Shown here piece after piece: positions 30,554 through 36,385 of a stretch of 41,060 nucleotides of DNA. Source of the DNA: Acidimicrobiia bacterium (GTDB taxonomy: Bacteria > Actinomycetota > Acidimicrobiia > Spongiisociales > ZC4RG35); NCBI GenBank assembly GCA_025928935.1, contig JAICNB010000025.1, forward strand, positions 1 through 41,060, read 5' to 3'. The stretch's first letter is position 1; each line of letters starts with the position of its first letter. Both the position numbers and the translations under genes were made by a program. The notes below the pieces were generated by a model. That model did no database searches. It had not been told where the DNA came from and saw only the letters and a list, made by a program, of their open reading frames with translations.

Positions 30554-30847
30554 TCAGCCTTCCAGCTTGTCCTTGGCCGAGTCCATGACGTCGGATGCCT
30601 TCTCCCGGGCGGTGTCGACCGCATCGGAGCCGGCGTCCTTGGCCGAGTCCATGACGTCGGATGCCTTCTCCCTGGCGGTGTCGACCGCATCGGAGCCGGC
30701 GTCCTTGGCCGAGTCCATGACGTCGGATGCCTTCTCCCGGGCGGTGTCGACCGCATCCTCGGCGAAGTCCTCGGCCTTTTGAGCCATGTCTGCGCCCTGT
30801 TCCTTCGCGCCGCCGAACCATCCTTTGATGGTGTCCATCAGTCCCAT
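30554..30847 (-). CDS. LEA-like 11-mer repeat protein
   Basis: The 97-residue protein begins MGLMDTIKGWFGGAKEQGAD, an amphipathic helix, then carries two and a half copies of a 22-residue unit built of two 11-mers, TAREKASDVMD and SAKDAGSDAVD (residues 34-97). It is rich in Ala, Asp and Lys and has no cysteine or tryptophan beyond Trp10. Such 11-mer amphipathic repeats are typical of group 3 LEA and related stress proteins, which stay unfolded and fold on membranes or on drying. A desiccation, osmotic or lipid-binding role is inferred from this. The start is ATG 30847 after an AAGGGATATGAG leader; ATG 30838 is an alternative. It is upstream of the aminotransferase (41 bp) and divergent from the membrane hydrolase. 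Confidence 0.75.
   Translation of the reverse strand: MGLMDTIKGWFGGAKEQGADMAQKAEDFAEDAVDTAREKASDVMDSAKDAGSDAVDTAREKASDVMDSAKDAGSDAVDTAREKASDVMDSAKDKLEG
30569..30756. repeat. 66-bp tandem coding repeat
   Basis: A 66-bp unit starts at 30569, 30635 and 30701, the last copy being partial (ending near 30756). The two full copies differ at only one or two bases, more alike than protein selection alone would need. That points to recent duplication or slippage. It encodes the 22-residue repeats of the LEA-like protein. Confidence 0.85.
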
Positions 30848-30952
30848 CTCATATCCCTTCTCGAACGAGCGCCCAACCCTACGTGAGTGGGCCGAGACCG
30901 ACTGGAGGCGGGGACCGTTTGCCACCGTCAACAGGTAATTTTCAGGTTCTAC

Positions 30953-33436
30953 GTGACACTGCCCAACATCGATCGACCCACCATCGACAGACATCGCCTC
31001 ATCAGACGGTCCCTGGTCGTGTTCGGCCTCATGACCGCCGGCATCGCGGCGCCGGTCCTCGATCTGTATGGCCGGAATCCGGCCGTCTTCGTGGCCAACC
31101 GGAGCACACCCGCGCAAATCGTGATCTTCGGGTTGCTCGTCACCTTCCTCCCGCCTCTGCTCGCCGTCCTGATCCTGACGGTGACGGAGAAGATCGGTGG
31201 GCGGGTCGCGGATGTCGCCTACCTGACGCTCGTCGGGATCGCGGCCACCGCCACGGGGATGGCTATCAGCCGCCAGGTCGTCCCGGAGAGCACCGTCTGG
31301 GCGTTGGTCCTCGGTCTGGGATTCGCGGTGTTCGTGGTATTGGTCTGCAGACGGATAGAACAGGGACTGGCGGTCTTCTCTCTCCTCGGCCCTGCGGTCC
31401 TGGTGATGTTCTTCCTGATCTCTCCCACTTCGCGTCTGCTGGCCGAGCCCGAGGAAACCGCCCCCAGCTCGGACCACGTGGGCGTGCCTGCACCCATAGT
31501 GTTGATCCAACTGGACGAACTGCCCCTCGCCTCGTTGATGGACCGGGAGGGTCAGATCAACGACAGCCTCTTCCCTAACTTCGCCCGGCTCGCCGAGGAG
31601 GGCAATTGGTACCGGAACGCGCTCTCCAATTCCATCGCGACGACCAGCAGCGTCCCGGCGATCCTGACCGGGAGGCTGGGTGACCCCGACTCGAGCCCTG
31701 CCCTGGTCGATCACCCCGAGAACCTGTTCACCCTGCTGGGCGACGGATACGACATGCACGTGGTGGAGTGGCTCACGGACCTCTGCCCCCAAGACCTGTG
31801 CAAGGACTTCGCAGGGAGAGGCCCGGCCCGCTTCGGGAACCTCCTCGCCGACGTCGGTGTCGTCTACGGGCACCTCTCACTCCCGTTATCGGCTCGAACC
31901 AACCTCCCCAGCATCGATGGCAGCTGGAAAGGGTTTCTCGGCCAGGCTGACACGCAAGCCATCGCCCCGGTCGACCTGGACGGTCTCCAGGTCCCCAAGG
32001 CCGGAGTGAGGAGCGGGTGGATCGACTCGTTGGAGCGGGTGATCGACGGGATCGAGGAGGGTGCGCCTACCACCATCCATTTCGCCCACCTGGAGGCTCC
32101 TCACATCCCCTGGCGCACCAACCCATCGGGGACCCACTACCAGCGCCCAGAGCAGTATGACGAAGTGGACGGCGTCGAAGTTGGTGGGACATGGGTCGAC
32201 CGGCCCGACCTTCCCCGTCTCGCCTTCCAACGTCACCTCTATCAGCTCGGGTTCCTCGACGACCGCCTCGGGGCTTTGTTCCAGCGTCTCGAGGAAACCG
32301 GGACGTGGGACGAGGCCCTGGTCATCGTCGTGGCCGATCACGGAGCGTCGTTCGTTCCTGGTCAGCATCGGCGGTGGCCAAAGGAGGACAACCGTGTCGA
32401 CCTCTATCGGGTCCCTCTTTTCGTGAAGCTGCCCGGTCAGACCACGGGGCAGGTGATCGATGAGCCCGCATTCGGCATCGACATCGTGCCGACGATCGTC
32501 GACGTGCTCGACATCGAGACAGAATGGCAGTTCGATGGCCGATCGTTGCTGACGATCGAGGGGACCAATCGCGCCCACGAGACCATCTACTACTGCTGCA
32601 ACGACGAGCCGGTCGGGACAGATATCACCGAGCTGTTCCGGCAGGTGGACAGGAACTATGAATGGGTGCCGGATCAGAGCACCTGGACCGCCGTGGCCGG
32701 AGCCGGGCCGGACGCCGGCCTGGTGGGTCGGGAAGTGAGCGAGCTCGACCCTGTGGAGAGCCCCGATCTGCACTGGGCCCTCACCCAAGCCGATGATCTC
32801 GCCGGAGTCAGCCGCGCCACCGGCTGGGTGCCCACCTACATCTCGGGACGGCTGGAGCTTCCCGAAGACGTCGAAACGGACGATCTGCTGGTTGCCATGA
32901 ACGGCGTGGTCGCCGGCACCGGACTGGTCACACGGGACAGCACGAGCTCGGGCGAGATCCACGCGCTCGTCGCCGAGGACCTGGTCGCCGATGGTTCGAA
33001 CACCGTCCAAATCCTCGTGCCCGACGGGTCCGGTGGCTGGTTGAGCGGGTCGACGGCGGACCTGACCGTCGACTACATGACCGAGGAGGGGCGTCGTCTC
33101 GACATACGGCCCGAGGGGAATCGCAGGATCGAGATCACCGGTGTCGAGCCGACCGACTCGGGCGGGTGGCAGATAACCGGTTGGGCTGCCGACGTTTCCA
33201 ACAAGGTCCCGGCAGACCGCATCTACGTCTATGGCGGCGACCTGCTTCTTATCGCGAGCGAGCCGAACAAGGACAACCAGAACGTGACCCGTTGGTTCAA
33301 GAGCGACGACCTCCTCCGCTCCGGGTTCACCTATGAGATCGAGGAAGGTTCGATCCCTGCCGGTCTGCAGCGGTTCACGGTCGTCGCCGAGTTCGGTGAC
33401 GTGGCCGTGGAGAGCCCGGCCACGATGACGGGCTAG
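30953..33436 (+). CDS. membrane sulfatase/alkaline-phosphatase-superfamily protein
   Basis: The 827-residue protein has five predicted membrane helices (about 20-40, 54-78, 87-106, 113-133 and 138-157), then a large extracellular domain of the alkaline-phosphatase/sulfatase fold. Metal-site elements seen are LIQLDELP (Asp188, Glu189), a possible nucleophile region IATTSSVPAILTG (residues 229-240), and VVADHGASF at about 457-465. Lipoteichoic-acid synthases and phosphoethanolamine transferases have the same layout, so it could transfer or remove a phosphate-linked group on an envelope polymer. A C-terminal part of about 270 residues (from about 555) reads as beta-rich and contains WAADVSNKVPADRIYVYG. 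The start is GTG 30953. Its stop shares CTAG with the convergent methyltransferase gene. Confidence 0.75.
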   Translation: MTLPNIDRPTIDRHRLIRRSLVVFGLMTAGIAAPVLDLYGRNPAVFVANRSTPAQIVIFGLLVTFLPPLLAVLILTVTEKIGGRVADVAYLTLVGIAATATGMAISRQVVPESTVWALVLGLGFAVFVVLVCRRIEQGLAVFSLLGPAVLVMFFLISPTSRLLAEPEETAPSSDHVGVPAPIVLIQLDELPLASLMDREGQINDSLFPNFARLAEEGNWYRNALSNSIATTSSVPAILTGRLGDPDSSPALVDHPENLFTLLGDGYDMHVVEWLTDLCPQDLCKDFAGRGPARFGNLLADVGVVYGHLSLPLSARTNLPSIDGSWKGFLGQADTQAIAPVDLDGLQVPKAGVRSGWIDSLERVIDGIEEGAPTTIHFAHLEAPHIPWRTNPSGTHYQRPEQYDEVDGVEVGGTWVDRPDLPRLAFQRHLYQLGFLDDRLGALFQRLEETGTWDEALVIVVADHGASFVPGQHRRWPKEDNRVDLYRVPLFVKLPGQTTGQVIDEPAFGIDIVPTIVDVLDIETEWQFDGRSLLTIEGTNRAHETIYYCCNDEPVGTDITELFRQVDRNYEWVPDQSTWTAVAGAGPDAGLVGREVSELDPVESPDLHWALTQADDLAGVSRATGWVPTYISGRLELPEDVETDDLLVAMNGVVAGTGLVTRDSTSSGEIHALVAEDLVADGSNTVQILVPDGSGGWLSGSTADLTVDYMTEEGRRLDIRPEGNRRIEITGVEPTDSGGWQITGWAADVSNKVPADRIYVYGGDLLLIASEPNKDNQNVTRWFKSDDLLRSGFTYEIEEGSIPAGLQRFTVVAEFGDVAVESPATMTG
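33433..33436. other. CTAG shared by two convergent stop codons
   Basis: The palindrome CTAG contains the TAG stop of the membrane hydrolase (33434-33436, plus strand) and the TAG stop of the methyltransferase (33435-33433, minus strand). The genes thus meet with a 4-bp overlap and no spacer. Confidence 0.9.
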
Positions 33437-34854
33437 CCGTCGCTGGTCATGGCAGGCTCGCCGCCGGTCGTGATGACGGGCTCACCGCCCGCGCGAGGGA
33501 GGGGCTCGAGGGCGAACAACACCCGGGTGCCTTCACCCAGGGCTTGCTCGGCGACAGTGGCGAAGTGCTGTTGGAGCAACGCCCGGAAGTCCGCCTCCTC
33601 ACCACCGGGGTGGAGCTCGTGGGGGAGCTTGTTGCCGACCAGCTTGACCACCATCTCGTCGGCCGGTGAGACGAACTCGACCAGCACCGGACAGCCGAAC
33701 GACGAGAGCCAGCGGACCACCTCCCGCGGTGGGATGCTCGCCCCGTAGATCAGGTGGTGGATCAGGCCGTAGGCGATGACCAGATCGGGCCGCGCTCTCT
33801 CCATCAGTGACGGTCTCTCCCGGCCCGCCCACCCTTGCGAGGGGGAGGGGTTGGCCAGATCGGTCAGGACGATGGCCAGGCCAGGCCCGGGCCTGCCCCG
33901 GTATAGGGCGTCGAGGACCGGCTCGTGACTGTCGACTGCTACCGCCAGGGCTCCCTTTGCGGCAGCGATCTGGCTGAAATGGCCGTCGTTGGCGCCCAGG
34001 TCGACCACACGGCGTGAGCCGAGCCTGTCCAGGGCGGCCTCGAGGAACTCGCCCTTTGTGGCCCGGTCACGAGTGACATGGCTGCACTCGACGTAGGTCG
34101 ACCACCCCTGATCGGCCCCCTCCCATTCCAGGGAGGCGACCAGCTTCTTCAGCTTCCTCACGTTGGCCAGGATCAGGTCGGCGGTGAATCCTGCCTCACC
34201 CAGCTCACGGCGCACGGAGCGGTCACCCATTCGTGACTCCATCCGCGCCTGAAGTCTGACGTGGAGGAGGGCGCTCGTGTTGAGCCGTTTGCCGGCGGGG
34301 AGGAGCTTCGCCATCTGCTCCGCAGTCGGCCCTTCCAGATCACCTCGGAGCCATGGCTGGAAGGGGACGCCCGCCCAAGCCCGGAGCAGGAGCGGGAAGA
34401 GGAACTGACGTGTGAACTGGCGGTACCCGATCCAGGGCTCTCCCGACCGGTAGGCCTCGAACGATCCCACGTCGATGAAGACCGGGCGACCGTCGACGAA
34501 CTGGACGTTGTAGGGCGTTGCGTCCTTGATGGTGAGCCCGGCTCCGAGGGCGCCCTCGAGAAGATCGAGCTGGAGGAGGGCGGCATCCCGAAGCATCGAG
34601 AACGTCCACTCGTACGGGTAGCTGATGAAATCGAGACGGGGGTGGGCCAGGGCGGCGGCGCTGCCATCCGGCGGGTCCACCTCCACCGACTCGATCAGGC
34701 GGCCGTCGGCGACCGCAGTGCGAAAGAACTTCGTGGCGGAGAGGGAACGCCAACCCTCGAGCCCCCGCTCGTCGAGAAGACGCACGACCTTGTCGCCATC
34801 GATGACGACGCGTGAAGCCGGGTCGCGAAAAGACCCTGGATCGGGGGTGCTCAC
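33433..34854 (-). CDS. SAM-dependent methyltransferase with kinase-like N-terminal motif
   Basis: The 473-residue protein has two parts. The N-terminal half (about 1-250) has no known domain I can name, but contains LTIKDATPYNVQF (107-119) followed by VFIDVGSFE (125-133). That arrangement echoes the catalytic loop and metal-binding DFG region of aminoglycoside-phosphotransferase-like kinases. The C-terminal half is a class I methyltransferase with RVVDLGANDGHFS (282-294), acidic VAVDSHEPV, and a later ALIAYGLIHH-like segment (DLVIAYGLIHHL). The start is GTG 34854; ATG 34929 would overlap the small gene upstream. It follows that gene by 31 bp, so they form a pair. The convergent membrane hydrolase shares its stop site. 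A role in surface glycan or lipid modification is inferred. Confidence 0.75.
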   Translation of the reverse strand: MSTPDPGSFRDPASRVVIDGDKVVRLLDERGLEGWRSLSATKFFRTAVADGRLIESVEVDPPDGSAAALAHPRLDFISYPYEWTFSMLRDAALLQLDLLEGALGAGLTIKDATPYNVQFVDGRPVFIDVGSFEAYRSGEPWIGYRQFTRQFLFPLLLRAWAGVPFQPWLRGDLEGPTAEQMAKLLPAGKRLNTSALLHVRLQARMESRMGDRSVRRELGEAGFTADLILANVRKLKKLVASLEWEGADQGWSTYVECSHVTRDRATKGEFLEAALDRLGSRRVVDLGANDGHFSQIAAAKGALAVAVDSHEPVLDALYRGRPGPGLAIVLTDLANPSPSQGWAGRERPSLMERARPDLVIAYGLIHHLIYGASIPPREVVRWLSSFGCPVLVEFVSPADEMVVKLVGNKLPHELHPGGEEADFRALLQQHFATVAEQALGEGTRVLFALEPLPRAGGEPVITTGGEPAMTSDG

Positions 34855-34885
34855 GTCGGTAGGCGCAGGCTCAGGATGCGCCAGC

Positions 34886-35074
34886 TCAGGACTCGGCGGG
34901 CTGGGTGGTTTCCTCCACCGCGCTGACATCGCCGGCCTCTGAGCCGGTCTCTGCCTTGTTGATCGCTCGTCGGGCCCGGTATGCCTTGAAGGCGACTCCG
35001 ATCCCGGCCAGGCCCCCGATGACCGCCTGGAGGATCATGCTGCCGGAGCCAGGGTCAAGATATCCAAAGATCAT
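34886..35074 (-). CDS. small LDPGSGS-motif membrane protein
   Basis: The 62-residue protein begins MIFGYLDPGSGSMILQAVIGG, followed by one membrane helix (about 14-30), a basic KAYRARRAINK patch and an acidic tail. Small proteins with the LDPGSGS start plus one helix recur in many bacteria, often by surface-polymer genes; none has a settled function that I know of. A good ribosome-binding site (GAGGAG, minus strand of 35082-35087) precedes ATG 35074. It is followed after 31 bp by the methyltransferase gene, so the two are likely co-transcribed. The positive patch after the helix predicts an outside N-terminus and a cytoplasmic tail. Confidence 0.78.
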   Translation of the reverse strand: MIFGYLDPGSGSMILQAVIGGLAGIGVAFKAYRARRAINKAETGSEAGDVSAVEETTQPAES

Positions 35075-35186: not shown

Positions 35187-36017
35187 TCAGCCCGAGTATC
35201 GATGTCGCGCCACGACTCGCCCAGAGGTGTCGAGCAACAGAGCCATGTCGCCCCCGTTGTTCCAGACCGAGCTGTCTCCGGGGTCCCAGCATGGATCCGT
35301 GCTCGCCACTGTCCGCTCCTCTCGCGGCCCGATCGAGAGCCCGCCGGGAAGGTGGCATCGGTGCACCGAGGACTCGTCGCGGATCGTCCACCCGCCCAGA
35401 TCGACTCGCTCCTCGCTGGCGAGGGCGACCCATTCCTGGCCCAGCACCTCATCGTCGGGCCCTTGGGGGTCGAAGCTCGAGCTCGCGCCGACGATCTCCA
35501 CCGATGGTGAGGGGCCCGAGGCCCCGCACACCGTCTCGGACCACATGCCCCGCCCCATCTCGTAAGCCTCGGCTTCGGCGTCGAGGAGCGTCTCGCCTCG
35601 GGCGTCGCCCTCCACGGGGGTGGTGGCGATGGCAAAGCCGCCCCCGACCTGTTCGAGGTTGACCAGGAGATCGCCCAGCCAGAGGTAGGCGAGGGTCCGA
35701 TCGAACTGGTCCTGCCCCATGTCCGCCAGGCCCACCTCTTGTCCTTCCACCAGCTCGACGAGTCGCTGCTCCGCCTCCTGGCCGAGGCACTCGTCGCTCT
35801 CCGGGGCGTTGATCCCCATGAGCCGCACTTCGATCTCCGCCGATCCCGTCTCGACCACCAGCGAGTCGCCGTCGTTGATCCGGGTCACCGTCCCCGGGAT
35901 GACGTCCCCGGGCAGTGCGCCGGCGGTATCGGGCCCGGCAGTGACGTCTACGACCCCGTCAACTCCGCACCCGGTGATGAGCAAGCCGAGGAGCACCCAA
36001 CGCCCGATGCGGGTCAT
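35187..36017 (-). CDS. thermonuclease (SNase)-lamin tail domain lipoprotein
   Basis: The 276-residue protein is predicted to be an exported lipoprotein: a short hydrophobic signal ends in LLITGC with Cys17 as lipid anchor. Residues of about 38-165 form a staphylococcal-nuclease-like domain with NDGDS (49-53), Arg65 in VRLMGINAPES, Glu73, and Arg107 in FDRTLAYLW, the catalytic set of the family. Residues of about 180-276 are a lamin-tail (LTD) domain (VALASEERVDLGGWTIRDE to ALLLDTSGRVV). It should cut extracellular DNA or RNA at the cell surface; LTD often aids targeting. The ATG start overlaps the stop of the LapA-like gene as ATGA, so translation is coupled. A hairpin follows it before the LDPGSGS gene. 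Confidence 0.88.
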   Translation of the reverse strand: MTRIGRWVLLGLLITGCGVDGVVDVTAGPDTAGALPGDVIPGTVTRINDGDSLVVETGSAEIEVRLMGINAPESDECLGQEAEQRLVELVEGQEVGLADMGQDQFDRTLAYLWLGDLLVNLEQVGGGFAIATTPVEGDARGETLLDAEAEAYEMGRGMWSETVCGASGPSPSVEIVGASSSFDPQGPDDEVLGQEWVALASEERVDLGGWTIRDESSVHRCHLPGGLSIGPREERTVASTDPCWDPGDSSVWNNGGDMALLLDTSGRVVARHRYSG

Positions 36018-36385
36018 GATCCCCGATAACGCTCGAGCTCTTCCCTGTCTTGTCGCTGCCGTCTTCTCCTCCGGCGGTACGCGCCCCCGATCAGGGAGGT
36101 GAGGAGAGCGACCGCGCCGATTGTGATCAGGATGACGATGGCCAGCGGGAACTGGCCGTCCATCCACATGAACCTGACCGGCACCGGGTCGGTGTTCTGG
36201 ACGGTGAAGACGACAACGATGGCGATGCCGAGCATGAGGAGGATCGCTCCCCAGGCGACACCGGTCGATTCGCCACGACGATTGTCCGGTCCCTCCTCTC
36301 GGGCGGGTCCGTCCGGTCCGGCCGGGGCGAGGTCCTCGGGCTCGGGCTCGTCGGGGAACGGGTCCGTGCGATCGTCGGTCATCAT
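36014..36385 (-). CDS. LapA (DUF1049)-family membrane protein
   Basis: The 123-residue protein has an acidic, Pro-rich cytoplasmic N-terminus (about 1-42), two membrane helices (about 44-64 and 80-104) and a very basic C-terminus (RRRRRRQRQ). The VVFTVQNTDPVPVRFMWMDGQFPLAIVILI core is the LapA domain pattern; E. coli LapA takes part in LPS-assembly control, but actinobacterial roles are not settled and no LPS genes are here. It lies between the Atg22/UMF1 transporter (11 bp upstream) and the nuclease lipoprotein (ATGA overlap), so the three are probably one unit. The start is ATG 36385; ATG 36382 is an immediate alternative. Confidence 0.83.
   Translation of the reverse strand: MMTDDRTDPFPDEPEPEDLAPAGPDGPAREEGPDNRRGESTGVAWGAILLMLGIAIVVVFTVQNTDPVPVRFMWMDGQFPLAIVILITIGAVALLTSLIGGAYRRRRRRQRQDREELERYRGS

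Follow-up and report, generated by a model that had tools for sequence, protein, structure and literature searches.

The closest described relatives of the locus analysed here are the noeA and noeB genes of S. meliloti, the alfalfa symbiont, which were named in 1995 as host-range genes; the role of NoeA in nodulation host range is a genetic phenotype and concerns S. meliloti only. No biochemical function of NoeA or NoeB was found in the literature searched. In a 2022 analysis of the Legionella kinome (PMC9758233), Lani_1194/NoeA was described as an atypical kinase that has Arg where the catalytic Lys would be expected and carries an attached methyltransferase, and the ion-pair Glu was not identified in this family. 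Of two conserved neighbours of the kinase-methyltransferase gene, the same analysis found one in 65% of 816 neighbourhoods and the other in 38%. The Legionella anisa genes Lani_1193-Lani_1194-Lani_1195 resemble the present locus in combining a NoeA-family kinase-methyltransferase with a neighbour of the alkaline phosphatase (AP) fold and a second conserved neighbour (PMC9758233). The small membrane protein called LDPG below may well correspond to Lani_1193. Lani_1194 was treated in that study as a possible effector kinase, unlike the envelope-modification reading pursued here. A further system of related design is WbdD of E. coli O9a, in which a kinase and a class I methyltransferase phosphorylate and methylate the O-antigen (PMC3482155).

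Layout of the locus

The window, a stretch of 41,060 nucleotides that was analysed as a whole, is a contig of an actinobacterial, Acidimicrobiia-like genome of 3.08 Mb; the nearest named homologues of the fusion gene described below are those of Acidimicrobiia. To our knowledge, no host plant is known for this organism. The initial annotation had described three genes lying together, and all three open reading frames were found:

34886 to 35074, minus strand: gene of the LDPG protein, an ORF of 62 residues with MIFGYLDPGSGS at the start, one membrane helix and a tail that is basic and then acidic.
33433 to 34854, minus strand: NoeA-like kinase-like/methyltransferase fusion; the frame is open to an ATG at 34929, and the likely start is the GTG at 34854.
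30953 to 33436, plus strand: NoeB-like AP-superfamily membrane protein of 827 residues; Pfam Sulfatase E 3.5e-20, and a profile match to NoeB.

The cassette combines a small membrane protein with YLDPGSGS, a fusion of kinase-like and methyltransferase halves, and an AP-fold membrane protein with five helices. The fusion gene probably starts at the GTG at 34854, since a 78%-identical homologue (L048) has its initial M at the corresponding codon (MSTPDPGSFRDP). With this start the gene begins 31 bp past the stop of the LDPG gene, reproducing the gap annotated initially. The NoeB-like gene is convergent with the fusion gene and their stop codons overlap, in agreement with the stop-to-stop arrangement annotated before; being on the opposite strand, it is not part of one operon in the window.

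The gene order LDPG-noeA-noeB is the same in the nodL-noeA-noeB region of S. meliloti pSymA (nod box n5), and the genes are homologous. The two regions differ in that the S. meliloti genes follow nodL on a symbiotic plasmid and all share one strand, whereas the window is a chromosomal-type contig in which nodL is absent and the third gene is convergent. The proteins also differ in length, with 553 residues in S. meliloti NoeB against 827 in the NoeB-like protein of the window, which has an extra C-terminal part. The initial annotation could not place the set in a known pathway, a view which has to be given up, as the genes belong to the NoeA/NoeB family of host-range genes named in 1995 and the kinase-methyltransferase neighbourhood was described in 2022. 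The cassette is therefore known in outline, the neighbourhood with its AP-fold partner having been published (PMC9758233), and the window holds a further member. What is added here is the regular presence of LDPG, its independent tie to NoeB and the unnamed LDPG gene within nodL-noeA-noeB, none of which has been described by motif in the literature searched. Our main reading, to which we assign a probability of about 45%, is that the LDPG-NoeA-NoeB unit decorates an envelope glycan or glycolipid.

The window's own flanks hold no glycan genes from which a polymer could be named. A small protein encoded at 30554-30848 on the minus strand, beside the start of the NoeB-like gene, contains a unit of about 23 residues three times in nearly identical form (AVDTAREKASDVMDSAKDAGSD). 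Upstream of the LDPG gene (35187-36167, minus strand) lies a gene for a nuclease-like lipoprotein, with a thermonuclease-type motif and a lamin-tail-like C-terminus by eye, for which no link to the cassette was seen.

The NoeB-like membrane enzyme

The family profile of the membrane enzyme aligned with NoeB at an hhalign probability of 99.2% (E 1.4e-19) with the catalytic motifs in register, so by profile comparison it is a homologue of NoeB. The AlphaFold model showed the five helices and the AP/sulfatase fold which had been annotated initially, and the following features were assigned:

30974 to 31420, plus strand: five membrane helices, residues 8-156 (AlphaFold: 8-41, 53-81, 83-109, 114-134 and 136-156).
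31484 to 32650, plus strand: catalytic domain of the AP fold (residues 178-566), aligned by VIA-align at Z 25-29 with sulfatases, phosphonate monoester hydrolases and YejM/PbgA.
31640 to 31642, plus strand: Thr230, predicted to be the nucleophile, where sulfatases have their cysteine; Thr in 46, Ser in 4, Pro in 1 and Cys in 0 of 51 relatives.
32336 to 32344, plus strand: Asp462-His463-Gly464, predicted metal ligands; D and G invariant in the 51 relatives, H in 45 and E in 6.
32753 to 33055, plus strand: C-terminal beta-rich domain, residues about 601-701; pLDDT above 90 to residue 700.

Beyond residue 700 the pLDDT is below 55, and confidence remains low up to the stop. LtaS, EptA/MCR and YejM/PbgA have the same succession of about five membrane helices and an outer AP-fold domain. 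The alignment with YejM/PbgA (6xlp) covers residues 2-563 of the NoeB-like protein with Z 25.0 and an rmsd of 13.4, and MCR-1 was found by Foldseek with the NoeB-like model; unlike all of these enzymes, the NoeB-like protein has extra C-terminal beta domains. Assignment to lipoteichoic acid synthase LtaS was rejected at an NCBIfam equivalog score of 26.9 bits against a cut-off of 970, and assignment to LapC/YejM/PbgA at 18.1 bits against 825.

The description of the enzyme as sulfatase-like held for the AP-superfamily fold, with a score above the Pfam Sulfatase cut-off, and failed for the sulfatase cysteine. The C-x-P-x-R motif of type I (formylglycine) sulfatases, in which the Cys (or a Ser) is converted to formylglycine, is absent, the window having T-T-S-S-V-P at this place, and this class was rejected. 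The residues expected of AP-superfamily phosphoesterases and phosphotransferases were found instead, namely a Thr or Ser nucleophile in 50 of the 51 relatives together with D188, H379, H384, D462 and H463. D188, H379, H384, D462 and G464 are invariant among these relatives, which were collected by iterated profile search and so may include more distant members of the superfamily. Given Thr or Ser where a sulfatase needs Cys, the enzyme is probably a phosphoesterase or phosphotransferase, acting on phospho-esters by hydrolysis or transfer, and this is likelier than a sulfatase. Two tandem NoeB-like genes stand beside a single NoeA homologue at L037, L090, L095 and L122.

The LDPG protein and its tie to NoeB

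The small membrane protein with its LDPGSGS start is present as annotated. It has no model in Pfam or NCBIfam, and the string 'LDPGSGS' did not occur in the literature searched. In the YLDPGxGx motif, Y and D do not vary among 43 homologues. Many of them carry a signal-peptide-like stretch ending in A-x-A ahead of the Y, as in AHAYLDPGTGS, and others begin two to five residues ahead of it. Either arrangement would place the motif outside; a single membrane helix would follow, and the basic tail would lie inside. On S. meliloti pSymA an unnamed gene of 71 residues with YLDPGTGS was found between nodL and noeA, overlapping the noeA start.

All seven LDPG copies retrieved from Actinomycetota that lie away from NoeA adjoin a NoeB-like gene, although two of the seven (L162 and L163) share one genus and are thus not fully independent. 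In two other genomes a single long NoeB-like protein has an LDPG-like segment at its N-terminus. At L167 (4872-7070) and L168 (81-2264), a signal-peptide-like stretch, AYVDPS and a membrane helix make up an LDPG-like segment that precedes a NoeB-like protein in a single open frame. Samples of Pseudomonadota, Bacteroidota and Planctomycetota were searched with the LDPG profile only, and the 29 LDPG genes obtained were classified by hand: 19 had both neighbours, 3 had a NoeB-like gene only, 4 had NoeA only (at least two of them on short contigs) and 3 had neither, including L220, a gene of the AYVGPGAG kind which scored above the cut-off. LDPG accompanies the NoeB-like enzyme about as regularly as it accompanies NoeA, which suggests that it is a subunit or helper of the NoeB-like enzyme.

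Similarly built small proteins with AYIGPGAG or AYVGPGAG are encoded at L212, L213, L219, L220, L222 and L223. A sulfotransferase-looking neighbour, recognised by eye from an LARAGTT/LARSGST motif, was seen at L212, L220, L222 and L223, and at L219 such a neighbour adjoins a true LDPG gene. These proteins may form a second, analogous small-protein family that accompanies sulfotransfer. Weak matches of the AYIGPGAG type (L213, L222, L223 and others), having no NoeA or NoeB neighbours, were rejected as LDPG members and not counted.

The window's own genome contains a second LDPG and NoeB-like pair without NoeA (L160, G000:C23:6000-21000), situated in a sugar-modification cluster; the pair follows genes for a GFO/IDH oxidoreductase, a DegT aminotransferase and a hexapeptide transferase, and a third NoeB-like gene lies 4 kb upstream of it. 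At L161 (G013:C12:112500-131500) an LDPG and NoeB-like pair comes directly after a phosphonate-type gene set, with four NoeB-like and two LDPG genes within 14 kb and NoeA absent. In this set the PEP mutase carries a fused cytidylyltransferase; the other members are a TPP enzyme, an iron alcohol dehydrogenase and a gene with a weak match to CDP-glycerol glycerophosphotransferase. On gene content the set has the make-up of a phosphonate pathway. Both surroundings hint at the kind of substrate. The envelope-polymer role that had been proposed initially for the cassette would fit such surroundings of related loci.

The NoeB-like enzyme could also be a hydrolase, a phosphodiesterase or phosphatase which removes or recycles what NoeA adds, forming a cap-and-uncap switch with LDPG as regulator of the hydrolase. 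The AP superfamily is rich in hydrolases, and phosphonate monoester hydrolases are among the enzyme's structural neighbours (2w8s, Z 26.4; 2vqr, Z 26.0). However, NoeB-like genes are paired with LDPG also where NoeA is absent, so that removal of the NoeA product cannot be their sole task, and the Thr nucleophile is that of known membrane phosphotransferases, as it is used by LtaS and EptA. We regard this explanation as unlikely and keep to the decoration of an envelope glycan or glycolipid.

The NoeA-like fusion

Pairwise comparison of the fusion with S. meliloti NoeA gave 32% identity over 463 aa (E 2e-71), and S. meliloti noeA was among the fusion homologues in plasmid records; phage records gave no match. 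Judged from these alignments, the fusion is a homologue of NoeA over the full length. In the structural model the kinase-like half comes first and the methyltransferase second. The pair of kinase-like motifs annotated before was found in the first half, and a methyltransferase domain in the second:

34507 to 34527, minus strand: KDATPYN (residues 135-141), the kinase-like catalytic loop, in which D136 and N141 do not vary among 66 homologues.
34456 to 34476, minus strand: IDVGSFE (residues 152-158), the DFG-like metal-binding motif, in which D153 and S156 do not vary among 66 homologues.
33487 to 34122, minus strand: class I SAM methyltransferase domain spanning residues 270-481, which VIA-align places with class I methyltransferases at Z 11-13.

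In the methyltransferase domain D310, G312 and N314 are invariant in the homologue alignment. A PADLOC match of the fusion to mad2 (E 0.0013) was weak, covered the methyltransferase half only and was set aside.

That the N-terminal half is kinase-like, as first annotated, gained support from structure and from the published family analysis, but not from sequence profiles alone, which miss known kinases. In the AlphaFold model (mean pLDDT 90.2), R50 is in the N-terminal strand 47-52, the loop with D136 and N141 lies between strands 132-134 and 142-145, and D153 comes immediately after strand 148-151, an arrangement which fits the layout of a kinase catalytic hairpin. Foldseek with the model of the whole fusion matched the kinase PknG (E 6.2e-6) and the kinase-methyltransferase WbdD; the VIA-align rows, that of WbdD included, span the methyltransferase half. 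Profiles of the N-terminal half did not reach known kinases, gave no match in the PDB sequence-profile search and no significant score against proteins encoded by the same genome, two of them Pkinase and four APH, although the Pkinase comparison, itself non-significant, aligned the catalytic loops in register. No Pfam or NCBIfam model covers this half.

WbdD resembles the fusion in uniting a kinase and a class I methyltransferase in one protein, and the methyltransferase halves align with Z 11.9. It differs in domain order, its methyltransferase being N-terminal to the kinase (fusion residues 270-481 align to WbdD 4-224), in its C-terminal coiled coil, and in a kinase half whose sequence relation to the fusion is undetectable. 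At L211 (967-1889) a NoeA-like gene is split over two frames, seemingly without the first part of the methyltransferase half, and still stands between LDPG and NoeB-like genes.

A pseudokinase or protein kinase that regulates or marks its membrane partners, for instance at the LDPG tail, with the methyltransferase modifying a protein, would be in keeping with the Arg at the place of the catalytic Lys and the ion-pair Glu not identified in the family (PMC9758233), and the LDPG tail would be cytosolic in the topology given above. Yet this tail is the least conserved part of the LDPG protein in the homologue alignment. Moreover, R50, D136, N141 and D153, the equivalents of PKA K72 (Arg here), D166, N171 and D184, are each present in 66 of 66 homologues from many phyla, and such invariance suggests catalysis. 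We consider a regulatory or protein-directed role improbable, and envelope decoration remains the preferred reading.

Conservation of the gene neighbourhood

The scan of named genomes yielded at least 566 loci encoding relatives of the fusion, the best 80 of which were analysed. The LDPG gene lies directly upstream on the same strand in 76 of these 80 loci, which come from many phyla, and a NoeB-like gene adjoins the fusion in 57 of the 80. Of the 47 loci in which at least 2.5 kb were available on both sides, 40 had a NoeB-like gene no more than about 3 kb away from the fusion; none was nearby in the other 7. The density of AP-fold genes was 0.149 per kb within 3 kb of the fusion and 0.014 further out, a difference of about tenfold. 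Among 20 regions from the window's own order, LDPG was present in all and a NoeB-like gene in 19. The grouping of LDPG, fusion and AP-fold genes exceeds chance, and the recurrence in unrelated genomes on which the initial annotation had been made to depend is thereby confirmed.

In 296 genomes of Actinomycetota, 33 encode the fusion at E 1e-60 or better and 32 of these have an LDPG match, the sole exception being a genome in which the fusion gene is cut by a contig end; four further genomes showed weaker LDPG matches within long frames. On the fusion tree the phylum labels require 14 changes over 11 groups against a least possible number of 10, so the gene appears to have been mostly inherited within phyla, with some mixing.

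That the third gene is an unrelated neighbour and the unit is made up of LDPG and NoeA only would agree with its opposite strand in the window and with the 7 complete loci lacking it, but is very improbable in view of the tenfold density near the fusion, the 19 of 20 regions of the same order and the LDPG-NoeB fusions.

Proposed function

In the proposed decoration of an envelope glycan or glycolipid, NoeA, a soluble protein, would act at the cytosolic face, where it would phosphorylate a sugar or lipid linked to the membrane and, by analogy with WbdD, methylate that phosphate or a nearby group. LDPG, from its conserved co-occurrence and fusion with NoeB, would be a small membrane subunit of the NoeB-like enzyme, with its YLDPG(S/T)GS end out and its basic tail in, and may connect this enzyme to NoeA. 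The NoeB-like enzyme, with its active site outside and a Thr nucleophile, would transfer or trim phospho-groups on the exported product.

This model draws on the homology to NoeA and NoeB and the gene order shared with the region behind nodL in S. meliloti; on the kinase-like layout of the model, the PknG match, the four invariant kinase residues and the published conclusion on the family (PMC9758233); on a NoeB-like enzyme whose nucleophile is Thr or Ser and whose metal-site residues are invariant; and on the LDPG-NoeB pairs without NoeA, the LDPG-NoeB fusions and the sugar (L160) and phosphonate (L161) surroundings. Counted against it are the 7 of 47 loci without a NoeB-like gene, the third gene on the other strand in the window, the N-half profiles that miss known kinases, and window flanks without glycan genes.

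More tentatively, YLDPG(S/T)GS proteins could be an unrecognised family of small subunits of membrane AP-fold phosphotransferases, distributed over many phyla with or without NoeA and including the unnamed fourth gene of nodL-noeA-noeB, which jointly would install an undescribed phosphate-based decoration, sometimes methylated or of the phosphonate kind. NoeA and NoeB occur with this third membrane protein across many phyla, mostly in non-symbionts, which points away from a role in nodulation only and towards general envelope chemistry.
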